In this document: piece by piece, positions 6,422 to 39,995 of the stretch | How the letters are laid out: each line of letters opens with the position of its first letter | Numbering within the stretch: position 1 is the first letter of the stretch | Assembly: GCF_020905335.1 (NCBI RefSeq) | Contig: NZ_JAJJMN010000001.1 | Location: forward strand, 1,860,001-1,924,000 | Origin: Flavobacterium lipolyticum | GTDB taxonomy: Bacteria > Bacteroidota > Bacteroidia > Flavobacteriales > Flavobacteriaceae | DNA: 64,000 bases | Direction of reading: 5' to 3' | The notes under the pieces: model-generated | The model's database searches: none | Told to the model about the DNA's origin: nothing | What the model saw: the letters and a program-made list of their open reading frames with translations, nothing else | Made by a program: the position numbers and the translations under genes

Positions 6422-6486
6422 ATTTTCTATTTTACATAATGTTTTTATAGTAGATTCCAAAATTTCATCAGAACCTCCAAATTCCA

Positions 6487-6673
6487 CAATCTAACAATCT
6501 AACAATCTAACAATCTAACAATCTAACAATCTAACAATCTAACAATCTAACAATCTAACAATCTAACAATCTAACAATCTAACAATCTAACAATCTAACA
6601 ATCTAACAATCTAACAATCTAACAATCTAACAATCTAACAATCTAACAATCTAACAATCTAAAAATCTAAAAA
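6487..6673. repeat. Tandem 8-bp repeat, about 23 copies
   Basis: The unit AATCTAAC (on the + strand) repeats without error for about 174 bp. Two degenerate units (C to A) follow next to the helicase stop codon. The array fills the gap between the helicase stop at 6674 and the 5' region of the broken secreted-protein gene at 6421. Perfect short repeats of this kind change copy number by slipped-strand replication. Confidence 0.97.
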
Positions 6674-8953
6674 TCAGTTAATGCTTGCTTTAAACATCTT
6701 CAACTCATCCCACGTAAATTCATCACCATATTTCTCCTTTAGCGGACTTAAGGATTCTTCGCTATAAAACTCGAAAGCTTCACGCAAGGCCAGAATTTTA
6801 TCATACGGTAAAACATCGGATATCTCCACTTTTTTAGCCTGAATTAGTTTAACCAAATGCATTTCAACTGTTTGCACAGTAAGTTTACGAATTCGGGCAA
6901 TATCCTGAACCGAATTTTTCTCCAGCCATAAATCATGGGTTTCTTCGATGGTTGTTTTCTTCTCGGCCTTTGGTGTGCTTTTATCTAATTTGCGTGCTGT
7001 ATAACGCACTGTAGGTTCTTCAGATTTAAAAATATCAGTGTTCGACATATTAAATTCCTCGCGGATCTTTGCAACCTTGTCAAATTTGTAGTTTTTAATC
7101 GCTGTAGACGACAATTTCTCTTTACAGATGGTTTCACCTGTCACGACAATTTCGATGAGTAATTTGGCCTTCATTAAGCGCAAAACAGCTTTTGTTTGCA
7201 AATCATCCAAAAAAGCGAGCTCTTCGTAGAACTCTTTTACTTTTTTAAATTTCTGAATTTCGGCCATTTTATTCAAAAGATCCGTAACCAGTTTGTCCAT
7301 TGGTTTAAAAAAATAATCATAAGCTGCCACTACCCTTTCCTGTACAAAAAAGAGATCGACAGTTTCTTTATTGAAAATTTTATTAAGCTGATTAACGAAT
7401 TTTTGTGCAGGATCTGCTAACGAATCTATTATTTCTAAACGCTTATGTGCCCAAGCAGCATGCTTTGATTTTTCAGAAGCAACTGCATTTTCGTTATAAC
7501 TAAAACGGTGATTGCGCCATTCCTGAGCCAAATCAGCCCAATTAAAACTACTAATCAAATAGTTATGAATAAAATTTTTAGTTTCAAAATGCAAGGAGTT
7601 TTTCAAAACTTCTTCGCTTGCTTTGTTCAAAGCATAATCCATCACATCCTGATCGTTCGAAATACCATTCATTTGCAGCGGAGACAACAAAATAAGCCCG
7701 TTTAAGGACGTTAAACGCGATAATGCTACATAGGCTTGTCCGGGTAAGAAAACTTGCGATACATCGAGCGCAGCTTTCTCAAAAGTTAACCCCTGGCTTT
7801 TATGCACCGTAATTGCCCATGCCAGCTTAAGTGGATAATGTGCAAATGTGCCCAAAACTTCTTCTTCAACTTCTTTGGTGAGATCGTTTACTTTGTATCG
7901 GATATTTTTCCATTCGTACTTTTCAACTTCAATGGTTTTATCCTCCTCAGGAAAATGTATGAATATTTCTTCGGCCGAAAGTGACTTTACAACGCCCATT
8001 TTTCCGTTGAAATAACGTTTTTCAAAAGACAAATCATTTTTGACAAACATAACCTGAGCACCCACTTTAAGCTTTAGATTTTCCTCAACCGGAAAAATTT
8101 TCTCCGGAAAATCCCCCACAATAAACGGCTGATAAGCGAATTCATTTCCGGCTAAATCGCCAATTGCCTGCTCATTAATCGAATCGGCTTTGGCATTATG
8201 CGTGGTAAGTGTAATATATCCGGGATTATTCTTTAAGTCAAAATCAGGTTTCACATATTCATTTAAAACCTGAATATCCTGAGGTGTAATCTGATTGTTT
8301 CGAAGATTATTCAAAACCGAAATAAAAGTATCATCTGACTGACGATAAATCTTTGATAATTCAATATATAACGGCGGATATTGCTGAATTACATGCGAAT
8401 GAAAAAAGAATTTTCCTTTGTAATAATTGCGCAAAGTTCGCCATTCTTCATCTCTGATAACCGGCGGAAGCTGTAACAAATCGCCAATAAAAAGTACCTG
8501 AACACCACCAAAAGCACGGGTACTTTTGCGTACGGTCTGCATCATAAAATCAATGGCATCCAACAGATCAGCGCGTAACATACTGACTTCATCGATAATC
8601 AAAAGCTCCATATTCCTGATTACGTTACGCTTCACATTATTCATTTTAAAGTGTCGACGTAAAGTTTCCTTATTCTCAAACTTCACTGTTTCAGTAAACT
8701 GAGAAGCCTCTTCGTATGATGGAATAAAGGCTGAAAATGGTAACTGAAACATCGAGTGAATCGTAACACCTCCGGCATTCAGCGCCGCAATTCCGGTTGG
8801 AGCCACAACCACAGTATTTTTATGCGTAGTGGCAATAATTTCACGCAAAAGTGTAGTCTTCCCGGTCCCCGCTTTACCGGTCAGGAAAATAGATTTTTGC
8901 GTTTGATTGATGAATTGTAAAGTATAAGCTGCTGCTTCTGAAACGTTTTGCAT
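6674..8953 (-). CDS. Pif1/RecD-like SF1 helicase with C-terminal helix-turn-helix domain
   Basis: A 759-aa protein. The SF1B helicase core has Walker A (GKAGTGKTTLL, about residue 25), Walker B (LLIIDEVSML), the GDLLQLPPV motif and a C-terminal motif with VHKSQGLTFE and YVALSRLTS (about 385-420). About 270 further residues end in a helix-turn-helix region (SVQDIARIRKLTVQTVEMHL, about residue 705), which resembles the HTH domain found at the end of RecQ- and Pif1-like helicases. It probably unwinds 5'-tailed DNA, G-quadruplexes or recombination intermediates. Its stop codon directly abuts the 8-bp tandem array. Confidence 0.9.
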   Translation of the reverse strand: MQNVSEAAAYTLQFINQTQKSIFLTGKAGTGKTTLLREIIATTHKNTVVVAPTGIAALNAGGVTIHSMFQLPFSAFIPSYEEASQFTETVKFENKETLRRHFKMNNVKRNVIRNMELLIIDEVSMLRADLLDAIDFMMQTVRKSTRAFGGVQVLFIGDLLQLPPVIRDEEWRTLRNYYKGKFFFHSHVIQQYPPLYIELSKIYRQSDDTFISVLNNLRNNQITPQDIQVLNEYVKPDFDLKNNPGYITLTTHNAKADSINEQAIGDLAGNEFAYQPFIVGDFPEKIFPVEENLKLKVGAQVMFVKNDLSFEKRYFNGKMGVVKSLSAEEIFIHFPEEDKTIEVEKYEWKNIRYKVNDLTKEVEEEVLGTFAHYPLKLAWAITVHKSQGLTFEKAALDVSQVFLPGQAYVALSRLTSLNGLILLSPLQMNGISNDQDVMDYALNKASEEVLKNSLHFETKNFIHNYLISSFNWADLAQEWRNHRFSYNENAVASEKSKHAAWAHKRLEIIDSLADPAQKFVNQLNKIFNKETVDLFFVQERVVAAYDYFFKPMDKLVTDLLNKMAEIQKFKKVKEFYEELAFLDDLQTKAVLRLMKAKLLIEIVVTGETICKEKLSSTAIKNYKFDKVAKIREEFNMSNTDIFKSEEPTVRYTARKLDKSTPKAEKKTTIEETHDLWLEKNSVQDIARIRKLTVQTVEMHLVKLIQAKKVEISDVLPYDKILALREAFEFYSEESLSPLKEKYGDEFTWDELKMFKASIN

Positions 8954-11339: not shown

Positions 11340-11477
11340 AAACTCAAAACCTGAAACCTGAAACCTGAAACATGAAACATGAAACTCAAAACTCAAAACT
11401 TGAAACCTCAAACTTGAAACCTCAAACTTGAAACTTGAAACTCAAAACTTGAAACTTGAAACTCAAAACTTGAAACA
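11340..11477. repeat. Degenerate CTGAAAC / CTTGAAAC minisatellite
   Basis: About 18 units of 7-8 bp (variants CTGAAAC, CATGAAAC, CTTGAAAC, CTCAAAA) fill most of the 11103-11526 gap. A shorter array of the complementary units sits at 13490-13529 on the other side of mnmG. Confidence 0.85.
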
Positions 11478-11494
11478 AAGAAAATCAAAACAAA

Positions 11495-11528: not shown

Positions 11529-13398
11529 ATCTTCCCATGTAAATTAACAAAACAGAAATATCACTTGGAGAAACTCCGCTTATTCTTGAAGCCTGAGAAA
11601 TAGTTACAGGACGAATCTTGCTTAACTTTTGTTTGGCTTCAATCGACATTGATTTAATTTTATCGTAATCGAAATTCTCCGGTATTTTCACTTCTTCCAA
11701 ACGAGTTAGTTTATCCGCATTATTTCTTTCCTTTTCGATATAACCGGAATACTTCACCTGAATTTCTGCCTGCTCCAAAATTTCCTGATCCAGATTATTT
11801 TCTTCCACATACGCTTTCACTTTTTCAAACTTAAGCATATCGACTAAATCAATTTGCGGACGAGAGAAAACTTTAAACATTTTATCTCCCTGTGAAATTG
11901 GAGCGGTTTCTTTAGCTTCTAAAATAGGATTTGTTTCTGCAACAGAAACACTGGTCTCTCTAAAAAAGGCCACCATCTTTTCAGACTCGCTTAATTTCTT
12001 TTCCATTCGGCGTAAACGCTTTTCAGAAGCAAGACCAATTTCGTGCGACATTGGCGTCAATCTAAAATCGGCATTATCCTGACGCAACAAAGTTCTATAC
12101 TCTGCTCTTGAAGTAAACATACGATAAGGTTCTTCTGTTCCTTTCGTAATCAAATCATCAATCAATACTCCGATATAAGCTTCATCACGTTTCAAAATCA
12201 ACGGCGCTTTTTCATGTACTTTCAAATGTGCATTTATTCCCGCCATCAAACCTTGAGAAGCGGCTTCTTCATATCCGGTAGTTCCATTGATCTGTCCGGC
12301 GAAATACAATCCTTCCACTAATTTTGTTTCCAACGTATGTTTCAATTGTGTCGGTGGGAAATAGTCATACTCGATCGCATAACCCGGACGAAAGAATTTC
12401 ACATTCTCAAAACCGGCTACAGAACGCAATGCTTTAAACTGAATATCTTCCGGAAGTGAAGTTGAAAATCCATTCACATACACTTCGCAAGTATTCCACC
12501 CTTCCGGTTCCACAAATAATTGATGACGCTCTTTATCGGCGAAACGATTAATTTTATCTTCTATCGAAGGACAGTATCTTGGACCAAGACTTTTGATCCT
12601 TCCGTTAAACATTGGCGAACGATCAAAACCATCTCTCAAAATATCGTGAACATCCAATGACGTATACGTCATGTAACAAGAACGCTGATGTGTTAACGGT
12701 GAAGTCAAATCAGAATAAGAAAACTTATCCGGCTTTGCATCACCTTTCTCTTCGTTCATTTTAGAATAATCCAAAGAACGTCCATCCACTCGTGGTGGCG
12801 TTCCCGTTTTCATTCTTCCAGCTTCGAAACCGGCACGAACTAAATCCTCAGTAATTCCTGTTGCGGCACTTTCTCCTGCTCGTCCTCCTCCAAACTGTTT
12901 TTCTCCAATATGAATTAAACCATTCAAAAAAGTTCCGTTTGTCAAAACAACAGACTTAGAACGAATCTCAACTCCCAACGAAGTTTTGATTCCTTTTATC
13001 TTCCCATCCTCAATAATCAAACCTTTGACCATCTCTTGGTAGAAATCCAAATTTGGAGTTCCCTCCAACATCATTCTCCATTCTTCAGCAAAACGCATTC
13101 GATCACTTTGAACTCTTGGCGACCACATTGCCGGTCCTTTCGATTTATTCAACATCTTAAATTGAATAGCCGTTCGGTCAGAAACAATTCCTGAGTATCC
13201 ACCCAACGCATCAATCTCTCGCACGATCTGTCCTTTTGCAATTCCTCCCATCGCAGGATTACAAGACATCTGTGCGATGTTCTGCAAACTCATTGTAACC
13301 AATAAAGTTTTGGATCCCAAATTTGCTGCCGCTGCCGCGGCCTCAGATCCTGCATGACCAGCACCAACTACAATAACATCGTATTCTTCTAAAAACAT
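11527..13398 (-). CDS. mnmG: tRNA uridine-5-carboxymethylaminomethyl modification enzyme MnmG
   Basis: A 623-aa FAD protein (GidA) that, with MnmE, installs the cmnm5 group on wobble uridine 34 of certain tRNAs. FAD binding motif VIVVGAGHAGSEAAAAAANLG spans residues 9-29. Family blocks follow: SCNPAMGGIAKGQIVREIDALGG (about 45) and GGRAGESAATGI with KTGTPPRVDGRSLD (about 175-210). The C-terminal helical region is complete. Length is normal (about 620-630). gidA is often near oriC in bacteria. Here it is flanked by parS-like sites and by inverted TGAAAC-rich minisatellites. MnmE is not in the window. Confidence 0.97.
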   Translation of the reverse strand: MFLEEYDVIVVGAGHAGSEAAAAAANLGSKTLLVTMSLQNIAQMSCNPAMGGIAKGQIVREIDALGGYSGIVSDRTAIQFKMLNKSKGPAMWSPRVQSDRMRFAEEWRMMLEGTPNLDFYQEMVKGLIIEDGKIKGIKTSLGVEIRSKSVVLTNGTFLNGLIHIGEKQFGGGRAGESAATGITEDLVRAGFEAGRMKTGTPPRVDGRSLDYSKMNEEKGDAKPDKFSYSDLTSPLTHQRSCYMTYTSLDVHDILRDGFDRSPMFNGRIKSLGPRYCPSIEDKINRFADKERHQLFVEPEGWNTCEVYVNGFSTSLPEDIQFKALRSVAGFENVKFFRPGYAIEYDYFPPTQLKHTLETKLVEGLYFAGQINGTTGYEEAASQGLMAGINAHLKVHEKAPLILKRDEAYIGVLIDDLITKGTEEPYRMFTSRAEYRTLLRQDNADFRLTPMSHEIGLASEKRLRRMEKKLSESEKMVAFFRETSVSVAETNPILEAKETAPISQGDKMFKVFSRPQIDLVDMLKFEKVKAYVEENNLDQEILEQAEIQVKYSGYIEKERNNADKLTRLEEVKIPENFDYDKIKSMSIEAKQKLSKIRPVTISQASRISGVSPSDISVLLIYMGR

Positions 13399-26158: not shown

Positions 26159-26229
26159 GGCGTCGTGGCCGAGCGGCTAGGCTGGGCTCTGCAAAAGCTC
26201 CTACTCCGGTTCGAATCCGGACGATGCCT
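26159..26229 (+). tRNA. tRNA-Cys (GCA)
   Basis: A full 71-nt cloverleaf. Acceptor GGCGTCG pairs with CGATGCC (one G-T). The D stem is GCC/GGC. The anticodon stem GGGCT/AGCTC encloses the loop CTGCAAA with anticodon GCA. The T stem TCCGG/CCGGA encloses TTCGAAT. The discriminator base is T, as expected for Cys. CCA is not encoded. Followed directly by a terminator and by four partial copies of its own 3' end. Confidence 0.96.
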
Positions 26230-26232
26230 CTA

Positions 26233-26263
26233 AAACCTCTAAAGAAATTTAGAGGTTTTTTTT
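26233..26263 (+). terminator. tRNA-Cys terminator
   Basis: AAACCTCT / AGAGGTTT stem followed by T8. Confidence 0.88.
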
Positions 26264-26264
26264 A

Positions 26265-26625
26265 TGTTTAATTTTTAGAAAAAATTAAATAAAGATTTAT
26301 GTTCGAATCCAAACGATACCTCAAAAAGAGATACAGAAATGTGTCTCTTTTTTTTATGTCAATTTTTAGAAAAAATTAGATAAAGATTTATGTTCGAATC
26401 CAAACGATGCCTCTAAAAGAGATACAGAAATGTGTCTCTTTTTTTTATGTCAATTTTTAGAAAAAATTAGATAAAGATTTATGTTCGAATCCGGACGATA
26501 CCTCTAAAAGAGATACAGAAATGTGTCTCTTTTTTTTATGGTAATTTTTAGAAAAAATTAAATAAAGATTTATGTTCGAATCCGAATGATATCTTAAAAC
26601 CTTTAAAGAAATTTAGAGTTTTTTG
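26265..26625 (+). repeat. Array of four 91-bp units, each a tRNA-Cys 3' tail plus hairpin
   Basis: The T-loop string GTTCGAATCC of the real tRNA (26209) recurs at 26301, 26392, 26483 and 26574, offsets of 92, 91, 91 and 91. Each copy carries on through most of the acceptor 3' strand (ACGATRCC with drift) and a hairpin. Three units use AGAGATACAGAAATGTGTCTCT plus T8. The last reverts to a decayed form of the original AAACCTCT hairpin. No copy has the 5' half of the tRNA. A 35-nt spacer with AATTTTTAGAAAAAATT links the units. Confidence 0.95.
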
Positions 26626-26649: not shown

Positions 26650-26926
26650 GTCATTTCGAGGAACGAGAAATCACACCAAATAATCGACAAAGATTGTCGA
26701 CTAAGTTTGCGGAGTTACTAATGTGATTTCTCCCTTATGTCGAAATGACAAACTTTACGCAAAATAACGTTGTCAACAATAACAAACCCGACAGGTAAAT
26801 CACACCAAATAATCGACAAAGATTGTCGACTAAGTTTGCGGAGTTTCTAATGTGATTTCTCCCTTATGTCGAAATGACAAACTTTACGCAAAATAACGTT
26901 GTCAACAATAACAAACCCGACAGGTA
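26650..26926. repeat. 129-bp hairpin repeat in two near-identical copies
   Basis: Unit A (26668-26797) and unit B (26797-26926) differ at one visible base (GTTACTAAT versus GTTTCTAAT). Unit A is preceded by GTCATTTCGAGGAACGAG. That string pairs with the later TCTCCCTTATGTCGAAATGAC to make a large imperfect hairpin around AAATCACA / TGTGATTT. It resembles the REP-like GTCATTTCGA repeats common between Bacteroidota genes. No coding potential. Confidence 0.9.
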
Positions 26927-36193: not shown

Positions 36194-39100
36194 TTATCTT
36201 TTGATTACTTTTTTGACTGATTTTCCAATTTCATTTGAAATTTCAAACATATAAACTCCAGCTGCTAAATGCGAAATATTTACAGTGGTAGATAACGTTT
36301 TCAATTCTTTAGAAAGAATGAATTGACCATTAAGAGTGAAAATTTTTAAATAATTGTTATTTGATGAATTCATTTCAATTGTAACAAAATCTTTGGTTGG
36401 ATTTGGGTATAATTTCAAAGATGTCTGAGTTTCAAAATCTTCTGTTCCAAGTGTTCTAACTTCAGTACAAGTACTTGTTGAGGTACAGCCATTTTTGGTT
36501 ATTTCGACAGCATAACTGCCATTTTTTATTGGCTTAAATGTAGAATTTGTTTCATTTGAAATAACGGTATAATTACCATTATCACAAATTAACCATTTGT
36601 AAATAGCGCCAGTTTCAGCAACTGATAGGATTCCGTTATTATTTGTAACGGTCAAATTAAGACTTTTTACTGTTACAATTTGCGTTGCTGTTGCGGTATT
36701 GTTATTGGCGTCTGTTACTGTCCATGTTACAATTGTATTCCCAATAGGAAAAGCTGTGGGCGCATTATTCGTTACCAATGCAACAGTGCAATTATCAGAG
36801 GTTACAGGTGTTCCCAGTAAAACATTTGTTGCAGTACAATTTGAAGTTGTATTTACGATTACATTTGAAGGTGCAGTAATGATTGGAAGCGTTACATCTT
36901 TTACCGTTACAATTTGCGTTGCCGTTGCGATATTGTTGCTTGCATCTTTTACTGTCCAGGTTACGGTAGTATTCCCAACCGGAAAAACAGTTGGCGCATT
37001 ATTAGTTACTGAAGCGACCGTGCAATTATCAGAGGTTACAGGTGTTCCCAGTAAAACATTTGTTGCAGTACAATTTGTATTAGTATTGACTGTTATTGAT
37101 GCTGGAGCTTTTATTGTTGGCAAAGTGACATCTTTTATCGTTACAATTTGTGTAGCAGTTGCAGTATTATTATTGGAGTCTTTTACTGTCCATATTACAG
37201 TAGTATTGCCAATTGAAAAAGCGGTTGGCGCATTATTAGTAACCGAATCAACAGCACAATTATCGGAAGTTATTGGATTTCCTAAAAGAACTCCAGTTGC
37301 AGTGCATCCGGAACTTAGATTTACAGAGATATTTACAGGAGCTACAATTGTTGGACTTTCCAAATCTGGGATTAAATTTATTTTGAAGGTTTTTGTTACC
37401 GTTGTTAAATCGGCATCTGTAACGGTGCATGAATAATCTCCAGCAGTCAACTCAGTAATTTTGGATGTTTTTTCTCCGTTAGACCAAAGATAGGTGTATG
37501 GGCTTCTTCCTCCATAAACCGCTATTGTTGCAGAACCTGTAGAACCTGCACAAGTGATGTGAGTTGGCGTAATCTCCGAGGTTAGTGGTGTAGGAGTGTA
37601 AGTTCCTTTTAGTCGAATTAAAGAAGCAGAATTAGTATTTCCTCTGTAAGCAGTAAAATCTCCGCCTATTGTTATTTTACCATCGGATTGCAGATTTATA
37701 GAATTAACAGAAGTAGAAGAAGAACTATTAAATTCTGATGCTCTAGTGTCTATGCTTCCATCAGCATTTAAACGAATTAAGTGTACAGATTGGTATCCTT
37801 GGTAGCTATAAAAACTACCGCCAACTATTATTTTTCCGTCTTTTGGCAAGGCTATAGATAAAACAGAATTGCCAAATCCAGATCCAATTTTAAAGGAGTT
37901 GTCTTTGCTCCCATCAGCATTTAAACGAATTATATAATTTTGATTCGCCCCTTGAAAGTAACTAAATTTACCACCCACAATTATTTTACCATCAGTTTGT
38001 ACAACGATAGAATGAACATCGCCTATTGTATAAAGGCTACCAAACCCAGTTCCAATATTAAAAGAACTGTCCTTACTCCCATCAGCATTTAAACGAACCA
38101 AATAGTTTTGGCTAACCCCTTGGTAGTTTTTAAATTTACCACCAACAATCAGTTTACCATCACTTTGCAGAGCTACAGATAAAACAGGAGCATCAAATCC
38201 AGTTCCAATATTGAAGGAGGTATCTACAGTTCCATTAGTATTTAAACGAATTAGATATCTAGAAACAACCTTTTGATATTCAGTTATATCACTTCCTATA
38301 ATTATTTTTCCATCAGGTTGAACTACAATTGAATTAACACTGTCTGAGTCATCATAAGCACGGATGAAACCACTTCCTGTGCTAAAAGAGTTGTCTTTGC
38401 TTCCATCAGCATTTAAACGAATCAAGTTTTTTTGAGGAATACCTTGATAAGCATTAAAGTAACCACCCACCATTATTTTTCCATCTGTTTGAATAGCTAT
38501 AGATTTAATGATACCTTGAGTACCATTATAAGAATAAAAAAAACCGGAGCCAATGTTGAAAGATGTATCAATGGAGTTGTCCGTATTAAAACGTATAAGA
38601 TTACTTTGAAGAGTTTGTTGATAATTAGTAAATTTACCACCAACTATTGTTTTTCCGTCGGTTTGTTGCGCAATTGCATAAACAGTACTGTTAAATCCAT
38701 CTCCTGTTTCAAAAGTAGTATCTCTGCTTCCATCACTATTTATAGATAAAATATTATTTACAGTAATACCTTGGTAATCATCAAAATATCCTCCTGTAAA
38801 TATTTTTCCATTTTGCTGCACAACAATAAAATTAATACGATCTGTTTGTCCGATTCCATAACCAGTTCCTATATCAAAAGAAGTATCTTTGGTTCCGTTA
38901 GAATTTAGACGAATCAAATGATTTTGAGAAATTCCTTTATAGTAAAGAAATGCACCCCCAACTATTATTTTACCATCAGGTTGTAAACCTAAAGCCGTTA
39001 CAGACGGAGCAAATCCAAACCCTGTCAATATATCAAAAGTTTTGTCTCTTGAACCATCAGGATTTAATCGCACTATCCCATTTTGAGTATCATTAACATA

Positions 39101-39925
39101 TCTCATAAAATAACCACCTGCTACAATTTTTCCATCAGGTTGTAATACAATACTATTTACTGTATCATCAAATCCTGAAGATACGTTAAAGGAAGCATCT
39201 TTACTTCCATCTGTATTCAAACGAATTAGATGGTTTTGAGATACTCCCTGAAATTGAGTAAATTCTCCACCGACAATTATTTTTCCATCATTTTGTAAAA
39301 CTATAGTTTTTACAGTAGAATTAAAACCAGTTCCAATATCAAATGAAGTATCTTTAGTTCCATCAGCATTAAGACGTATCAAATATTTAGTAGCGATTCC
39401 CTGATAACCTAAAAATCCTCCTCCAACTAATATTTTACCATCTTTTTGTTTTACCATGGCAAGTACGGTAGAAATGCCATTTGGATTATCCATAAAACCA
39501 GTTCCGCAATTAAATGTAGCATCTTTGCTTCCGTCTGAATTTAAACGAATTATATAATTTTGAGGGAATCCTTGAAATTTTGTAAAAACACCTCCCAGAA
39601 TCATTTTTCCATCATCTTGCAGAATAATTGAAGATATATAATTAGAATACATCGAGTTACTAAAACCAGCACCAATATTAAAACTTGTATCTTTTGTACC
39701 GTCTGGATTCAAACGAATTATATTATTAGAAGAATTGTCTCCTCTATAGGAGCTAAAGGCACCCCCTATTAATATTTTTCCGTCTGGTTGTGTAGCTGTA
39801 CATAAAACACTGCCATTTGAGAATCCCTGATATGATCCATATTCATGTTCAACATCAATTGAATTTTGGGCATCAATTGTTAAGAATTGTAAAAAGAAAA
39901 GTAATAAGAGTAAAGGTTTTTTCAT
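36194..39925 (-). CDS. Large T9SS-secreted protein: delta-60 repeats, SprB, HYR and sorting domains
   Basis: A 1243-aa protein from the ATG at 39925 (MKKPLLLLLFFLQFLTIDAQ, signal peptide). Next come 14 delta-60-type repeats of about 50-60 aa, each with DGK-I-x-GG and NxLIRLNxDGSxDxSF. A SprB-like repeat (about 840-900; SATIAVYGGRSPYTYLWSNGEK) and three HYR domains follow. The C-terminal sorting domain has KLYPNPTKDFVTIEM and ends GKSVKKVIKR. Such sorting domains direct export through the type IX system and surface display or release. The HYR units repeat at DNA level with a 234-bp period (36672, 36906, 37140). TATATTTG lies at 39941-39948. Confidence 0.93.
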   Translation of the reverse strand: MKKPLLLLLFFLQFLTIDAQNSIDVEHEYGSYQGFSNGSVLCTATQPDGKILIGGAFSSYRGDNSSNNIIRLNPDGTKDTSFNIGAGFSNSMYSNYISSIILQDDGKMILGGVFTKFQGFPQNYIIRLNSDGSKDATFNCGTGFMDNPNGISTVLAMVKQKDGKILVGGGFLGYQGIATKYLIRLNADGTKDTSFDIGTGFNSTVKTIVLQNDGKIIVGGEFTQFQGVSQNHLIRLNTDGSKDASFNVSSGFDDTVNSIVLQPDGKIVAGGYFMRYVNDTQNGIVRLNPDGSRDKTFDILTGFGFAPSVTALGLQPDGKIIVGGAFLYYKGISQNHLIRLNSNGTKDTSFDIGTGYGIGQTDRINFIVVQQNGKIFTGGYFDDYQGITVNNILSINSDGSRDTTFETGDGFNSTVYAIAQQTDGKTIVGGKFTNYQQTLQSNLIRFNTDNSIDTSFNIGSGFFYSYNGTQGIIKSIAIQTDGKIMVGGYFNAYQGIPQKNLIRLNADGSKDNSFSTGSGFIRAYDDSDSVNSIVVQPDGKIIIGSDITEYQKVVSRYLIRLNTNGTVDTSFNIGTGFDAPVLSVALQSDGKLIVGGKFKNYQGVSQNYLVRLNADGSKDSSFNIGTGFGSLYTIGDVHSIVVQTDGKIIVGGKFSYFQGANQNYIIRLNADGSKDNSFKIGSGFGNSVLSIALPKDGKIIVGGSFYSYQGYQSVHLIRLNADGSIDTRASEFNSSSSTSVNSINLQSDGKITIGGDFTAYRGNTNSASLIRLKGTYTPTPLTSEITPTHITCAGSTGSATIAVYGGRSPYTYLWSNGEKTSKITELTAGDYSCTVTDADLTTVTKTFKINLIPDLESPTIVAPVNISVNLSSGCTATGVLLGNPITSDNCAVDSVTNNAPTAFSIGNTTVIWTVKDSNNNTATATQIVTIKDVTLPTIKAPASITVNTNTNCTATNVLLGTPVTSDNCTVASVTNNAPTVFPVGNTTVTWTVKDASNNIATATQIVTVKDVTLPIITAPSNVIVNTTSNCTATNVLLGTPVTSDNCTVALVTNNAPTAFPIGNTIVTWTVTDANNNTATATQIVTVKSLNLTVTNNNGILSVAETGAIYKWLICDNGNYTVISNETNSTFKPIKNGSYAVEITKNGCTSTSTCTEVRTLGTEDFETQTSLKLYPNPTKDFVTIEMNSSNNNYLKIFTLNGQFILSKELKTLSTTVNISHLAAGVYMFEISNEIGKSVKKVIKR

Positions 39926-39995
39926 ATAAAATAGTTTTTCCAAATATAAAGATATTTACATACAACTTTTCTTATATAGAAAAGTCTATCACAAA

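Follow-up and report, generated by a model that had tools for sequence, protein, structure and literature searches.

By form, the closest known system to the repeats described here is RtT of Escherichia coli (Rfam RF00391, at tyrT/tyrV), whose tandem units start by repeating the 3′ end of the tRNA, lie directly downstream of the gene and vary in number between strains. At the E. coli RtT locus, Tandem Repeats Finder (TRF) gives a period of 178 with 3.1 copies and Rfam gives four RF00391 matches. Of 5,426 E. coli genomes, 4,687 contain an RtT stretch, at 12,044 places in all, with a median of 2 and a maximum of 14 per matching genome. Integrative elements that target tRNA genes (prophages, ICEs and genomic islands) insert at the gene end, regenerate the gene and leave a partial copy at the far side; it is well known that full-size elements, once integrated, leave tRNA fragments behind (PMC9897764). 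Non-autonomous repeats of the MITE and REP type are short, gene-less and palindromic, and they would need an enzyme supplied in trans. The arrays found in Flavobacterium resemble each of these systems and depart from each. Their units are 66–115 bp long, compared with 178 bp in RtT, and the window, the whole 64,000-nt stretch of DNA analyzed here, has no RtT match. Unlike the tRNA-targeted integrative elements, the Flavobacterium element is about 55–90 bp long, gene-less and stacked in tandem, and one motif, which we call E, is found across several target genes. Unlike MITE- and REP-type repeats, it is nearly confined to the ends of stable-RNA genes, stands in tandem and comes with a copy of its target's end. 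We file the array under neither RtT nor the integrative elements because the test with the RtT model failed and the unit has no integrase; in its workings, it is most like a miniature integrative element. A full-text literature search found no account of such arrays, and PINSR, the repeat treated in PMC4755523, is a different one. The observations suggest a mobile element of very small size and of a kind not described before.

The window contains a single tRNA called by ARAGORN, tRNA-Cys(GCA), and the copied part is its final 22 nt (26209–26230). A preliminary description of this DNA had proposed an array of tRNA-Cys tails, each with a hairpin. The array is real and was correctly placed, as judged by ARAGORN, TRF and the letters themselves: the tail within the gene begins at 26209, four extra copies start at 26301, 26392, 26483 and 26574, and the start-to-start spacings are 92, 91, 91 and 91. 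TRF reports a period of 91 over 26256–26599 (3.8 copies, 93% matches, score 581) and also lists a period-182 row over 26209–26624. In the first four units, the order is gene end, A/T-run hairpin (H1), E, about 6 nt and the next gene end, with the following features:

26159–26230, forward strand: tRNA-Cys(GCA) gene (ARAGORN; Rfam RF00005, 50.6 bits; letters)
26232–26259, forward strand: terminator-like hairpin H1 of unit 1, CCTCTAAA type (letters; hairpin table)
26270–26294, forward strand: palindromic element E, copy 1 (motif search)
26301–26322, forward strand: tail copy 1 (letters)
26323–26352, forward strand: hairpin H1 of unit 2, GAGATACA type (letters; folding test)
26361–26385, forward strand: E, copy 2 (motif search)
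26392–26413, forward strand: tail copy 2 (letters)
26415–26442, forward strand: hairpin H1 of unit 3, GAGATACA type (letters)
26452–26476, forward strand: E, copy 3 (motif search)
26483–26504, forward strand: tail copy 3 (letters)
26506–26533, forward strand: hairpin H1 of unit 4, GAGATACA type (letters)
26543–26567, forward strand: E, copy 4 (motif search)
26574–26595, forward strand: tail copy 4, the most diverged of the four (letters)
26596–26622, forward strand: decayed hairpin after the final tail copy, with no E behind it (letters; motif search)

A change of hairpin type in the middle units had also been described, and we find the same: units 2–4 carry GAGATACA-GAAA-TGTGTCTC, the gene-proximal hairpin is CCTCTAAA-GAAA-TTTAGAGG, and the last hairpin is a decayed form of the latter. 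One window unit folds better than 200 of 200 shuffles (z −4.2). Between 25600 and 27100, at expectation values up to 1, Rfam placed tRNA alone above its gathering score; ten other matches fell below theirs, and RF00391 gave no match. Directly downstream of the array, a 129-bp sequence is present twice (26668–26926, 99% alike by TRF), and a genome of the same species (G397) has a single copy of it in the stretch compared. Elsewhere in the window, TRF lists an 8-bp repeat at 6486–6675 (ACAATCTA, 23.8 copies, 99% matches), about 18 copies of a 7-bp AAACTTG unit at 11340–11491, and 234-bp repeats at 36665–37355 within a long minus-strand open reading frame (36194–39943).

The constant part shared across genes and species is E, rather than the tail or the hairpin. 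E is a palindromic stretch of about 25 nt, AATTTTTAGAAAAAATTARDTAAAG, ahead of each tail copy in the window array; it consists of a short A/T palindrome with an 8-bp stem and a 3-nt loop, followed by ANTAAA[G/T]. With up to three mismatches allowed, E occurs four times in this genome, all four inside the tRNA-Cys array. The series is not due to chance, because the 25-nt motif at the same threshold occurs a mean of 0.01 times in 100 dinucleotide shuffles of the window, none of which reaches the observed four. Across the 79 distinct rows from tRNA-Cys arrays, E is nearly invariant; a C-G pair replaces A-T at one position of the stem in three rows, which weakly supports the predicted base pairing.

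Among 61 Flavobacterium genomes, we found 55 copies of E in 23 genomes with up to two mismatches, and the reversed control found 0. In a hand tally based on fetched loci, with places lacking a locus assigned from neighbors in the same cluster, 54 of the 55 lie at gene ends and one elsewhere: 35 at tRNA-Cys, 8 at tRNA-Ser, 7 at the 5′ end of tRNA-Leu, 2 at tRNA-Ala and 2 at putative 5S-like genes. Automatic gene-family labels were left out of these counts (364 of 684 rows were unassigned, and others mislabeled). The 5S-like class is our reading of truncated pieces on which Rfam made no call; the Flavo-1 sRNA (RF01705) maps no more than about 1 kb away from these arrays (L195, L064 and L213). 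The single place elsewhere (G073, C92:7891, locus L189) is the sole E-like match in the 61 genomes without an adjoining stable-RNA gene; it has two mismatches and is possibly a chance match. Unrelated genes carry the same E, including at the positions left free by the search pattern. All seven copies in G001 belong to a 66-bp array at tRNA-Ser(GGA), and two of the four in G026 lie beside tRNA-Leu(TAA) and one at tRNA-Cys (three of the four were assigned). An early notion that every unit has a fixed length of about 66 bp was abandoned, as the tRNA-Ala array has a period of 94. Another array occupies the 3′ end of a protein gene, presumably trxB-like from a peptide motif (L090 and L110, both one contig region).

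A tandem-E pattern is present in 48 of 398 genus genomes (control 0 among the matches listed), a count that is too low because the pattern's gap range misses this genome's own array, and in none of 199 genomes sampled across the family, a set that includes two members of the genus. A scan of named bacterial and archaeal genomes returned 65 stretches, 48 of them labeled Flavobacterium, Flavobacteriaceae or Flavobacteriia; the others include genus contigs under MAG labels and chance or unrelated repeats. Three scans of viral contigs gave 0 matches each. A search of phages with the window array returned two Campylobacter phage records, matching 39 AT-rich bases (87%, expectation value 1e-3) that span a hairpin arm, the T run and the palindrome; we take these for chance. 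The corresponding plasmid search returned one Pedobacter record, which matched the tRNA part alone.

At tRNA-Leu and tRNA-Ser, orthologous loci that lack E serve as empty sites. The loci fetched were the 30 best-scoring for each gene out of 114 and 117 matching genomes, which is not a random sample. For tRNA-Leu(CAA), 28 of 30 fetched loci have neither E nor a gene-end copy in the 150 nt at the 5′ end, and L249 and L250 carry inserts; for tRNA-Ser(GGA), E is absent in 27 of 30 fetched loci and present in 3. A tRNA-Leu locus with two inserts (L106, from the tandem-E scan) has TTAGCAGACAGAAATAACA after the outermost of its 11-nt gene-end copies, and a near-identical counterpart of this sequence directly adjoins the tRNA-Leu gene in L265 and L270. 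Similarly, the last gene-end copy at tRNA-Ser in G091 runs into nearly the same sequence that adjoins the gene in L227. Both genes thus show the gene end as a direct repeat on either border, together with empty sites in relatives, from which it follows that the spacer and E were inserted, the gene end duplicated and the gene left whole. Plain slippage does not account for this outcome; an event like that of an integrative element does. At tRNA-Cys itself, the insertion step would be the same by analogy with tRNA-Leu and tRNA-Ser.

Once in place, the units turn over. Copy number is not fixed among relatives, so that the fixed number which the preliminary description had named as part of its own refutation does not hold: G397 has two copies of E compared with four in the present genome (G000), and the flanks of the two arrays are 98.3% and 98.7% identical. 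The number probably changes by recombination, and recombination between units would suffice for this difference, with no need for an insertion enzyme. The sets of occupied genes also differ between related species. Over the tRNA-Ser stretch, G071 and G063 share 93% and 94% identity with G091, and E lies at tRNA-Cys and tRNA-Ser in G071 and at tRNA-Cys and tRNA-Ala in G063.

We surveyed the tRNA-Cys locus in 37 genus genomes, 36 of which yielded it (G031 did not). By the script's threshold, 19 of the 36 have at least one tail copy; a small palindrome interrupts the copy in L014, and including this locus raises the number to 20. E stands alone, with no tail copy scored, in 4 of 36 (3 if L014 is taken as tail-bearing), and 13 of 36 have neither. 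The highest count is 11 (G280). In L002, L013, L014 and L214, a 16-bp palindrome, TCCCGAAGCTTCGGGA, or variants of it, lies inside tail copies, and the units of L061 (G021) are longer, at 114–115 bp, with the extra stretch inside the terminator-like hairpin. Hairpin types are mixed in 29 of 44 arrays with at least two units (by a crude script, with the one genome that supplies both L052 and L215 counted twice); therefore, a change of hairpin within an array is common. In the six E-bearing genomes with an uncommon tRNA-Cys tail, 11 copies are nearer to their own tRNA, one is a tie and none is nearer to the common form. Where the genome has the common tail, 133 tail copies fit their own tRNA equally well or better and 14 are closer to another variant. 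Units of the tRNA-Leu type may also contain a tail-spacer hairpin: over 33 distinct units, the mean longest stem is 3.82 versus 3.02 when shuffled, with 8 of 33 units at p<0.05 and 0 of 1000 set shuffles as high. Several of these units have no hairpin, units share ancestry and one (L263) comes from a locus without an array, and we treat the tail-spacer hairpin as a lead only.

Two matches outside the genus, L159 and L170, are tRNA-tail arrays in Nanoarchaeia and Nanoarchaeota. In the genome of L170 (G618), the insert has two hairpins: a bulged-C hairpin, then CACTTTTTA, then an A/T-cored palindrome. It sits after tRNA-Ala(CGC), tRNA-Leu(CAG) (twice in tandem), tRNA-Arg(CCT), tRNA-Pro(CGG), tRNA-Pro(TGG) and a UPF0047 gene; six tRNA genes and one protein gene of this Nanoarchaeota genome show the same architecture. 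At L320, the insert lies in the opposite orientation, with its palindrome directly against the 3′ end of tRNA-Leu(TAA). In G618, the pattern gave nine matches (seven without a mismatch, one with one, and an overlapping one with three) and a control of 0. Within this one genome, the hairpins of seven distinct rows pair in 98.6% of cells, compared with 32–51% when the partners are slid, and both sides change in 10 of 20 pairs. The gene-end copies match their own tRNA partially, with at least 14 exact letters. At the UPF0047 locus, 19 of 54 nt distinguish one gene end from the other, with 14 codons changed synonymously and 2 not; one of the ends was probably brought from elsewhere, because both look like ends used in living genes. 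No phage match was found for the archaeal element. A model of the archaeal element gives weak scores on both strands of Flavobacterium loci (best expectation value 0.0045, under a short calibration), and the likeness is partly built in, as the search pattern demanded an A/T palindrome. The Nanoarchaeota arrays may be a relative of the Flavobacterium element or a case of convergence.

We consider it reasonably probable that the array is a stack of non-autonomous, gene-less micro-elements inserted at gene ends by an enzyme that acts in trans. Each unit runs from a gene-end copy through H1 (in tRNA-Cys arrays), E and 3–6 nt to the next gene-end copy. The enzyme, which could be a tyrosine recombinase or a protein that reads folded single-stranded DNA, would recognize E together with the gene end, and perhaps H1 as well, so that E would serve as the recognized end of the element and the unit would be inserted as integrative elements use tRNA tails. 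Adjacent copies would then change in number and mix their hairpin types by ordinary recombination or slippage. We favor this reading because E is confined to arrays in this genome and to gene ends in all but one of the places tallied, because the same E lies at several unrelated genes whose set differs between related species, because of the empty sites and the presence of two to four copies of E within one species, and because of the archaeal parallel with its covarying hairpins and foreign-looking gene end. Several results count against it: with up to three mismatches, this genome holds no donor copy of E outside arrays; the start of the gene-end copy differs between lineages; and tail divergence shows no steady gradient away from the gene. 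Neither a cargo-bearing relative nor an enzyme was found.

Plain slippage or unequal crossing-over, in which native downstream DNA was duplicated in tandem and E is merely part of it, is an unlikely origin. The head-to-tail units, the homogeneous middle units, the different numbers in G000 and G397, whose flanking DNA is almost identical, and the left arm of E that also stands behind the last copy at the trxB-like locus would all fit it. Yet the spacer and E are absent from the insert-free tRNA-Leu and tRNA-Ser loci, and unrelated genes bear the same E; slippage, which the preliminary description had listed as an option, can explain later changes in number, as can recombination, and not the origin of the insert. 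That description had put forward a ladder of attachment sites left by the serial integration and loss of larger elements. Its logic holds in part: the tails do behave like attachment-site copies, with empty sites and a regenerated gene end. As scars of larger integrations, however, they are quite improbable. The residue between copies is one short unit, and it is this inserted unit that recurs, at tRNA-Cys, tRNA-Ser, tRNA-Ala, the 5S-like genes, the trxB-like gene and tRNA-Leu. The units hold no gene and hence no integrase of their own, and between tRNA-Cys copies we found no integrase or cargo apart from two insertion-sequence-like interruptions (L214 and L011/L060, which we take to be IS3-like and IS21-like). 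Both folB and a LysE-type gene, with short flanks, are present in 52 of the 65 fetched tRNA-Cys loci (L052 and L215 being one genome). E was not found in viral contigs, and it adjoins a TTCRANYCCC tail in 9 of 398 genomes, solely in short arrays.

It is also improbable that the array is kept for a role at the RNA level, as tandem terminators or as a source of tail-like small RNAs of the kind proposed for RtT in E. coli. Each tRNA-Cys unit does have a terminator-like hairpin, the unit noted above out-folds all of its shuffles, and RtT is an annotated RNA. Against this, the tRNA-Leu units lie upstream of the gene, at its 5′ end, with E antisense to it, which favors selection on E at the DNA level over the RNA level; more than a third of the surveyed genomes lack E at tRNA-Cys; and insertion at several genes would be left unexplained. 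Mobilization of E as a REP-like hairpin by a Y1/REP-type transposase (RAYT) is very unlikely. E is indeed a short hairpin, and Y1_Tnp (PF01797) matches are present in 18 of the 22 genomes tested, but the sequences nearest to E in 15 stretches surrounding Y1 genes have 4 to 7 mismatches over 21 scored positions, compared with 0 to 2 in six array loci, and the palindromes beside some Y1 genes differ from E. The palindrome scan beside these genes required stems of at least 9, and a scan for similarity to E was added because its stem is 8 bp. G029 has an array without a Y1 match, and G022 has eight Y1 matches without an array at tRNA-Cys. No cognate transposase was found among the Y1 genes of the 22 genomes or their 15 flanking stretches, and a Y1 or RAYT enzyme is not supported as the mover. 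L308 and L309 contain longer-type Y1-transposase genes with distinct palindromes of their own nearby, such as AAAACTACATC..GATGTAGTTTT. A CRISPR-like array was also considered and set aside, as both parts of the unit repeat within the array and there are no differing spacers.

More tentatively, and at somewhat short of an even chance, we propose that the insertion of micro-elements extends to a class of gene-less units of about 55–90 bp whose precise insertion sites are the ends of tRNA genes, of 5S-like genes and now and then of a protein gene. The class would exist in Flavobacterium and also in Nanoarchaeota, there either as a relative or through convergence. Such a unit would supply a functional gene end, in many cases together with a terminator-like hairpin, would leave the old end behind and could carry a foreign gene end between species. 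If true, the unit would be among insertions a very small one that is specific for gene ends, and recurring fragments of tRNA tails would be explained without lost prophages. The RtT repeats of E. coli may merit a second look in the same light. The arrays are easily typed between strains, which makes their rate and mechanism directly testable. Insertion of this kind would bear on the evolution of tRNA genes, as it would change the end and the terminator of essential genes and may carry in foreign ends.
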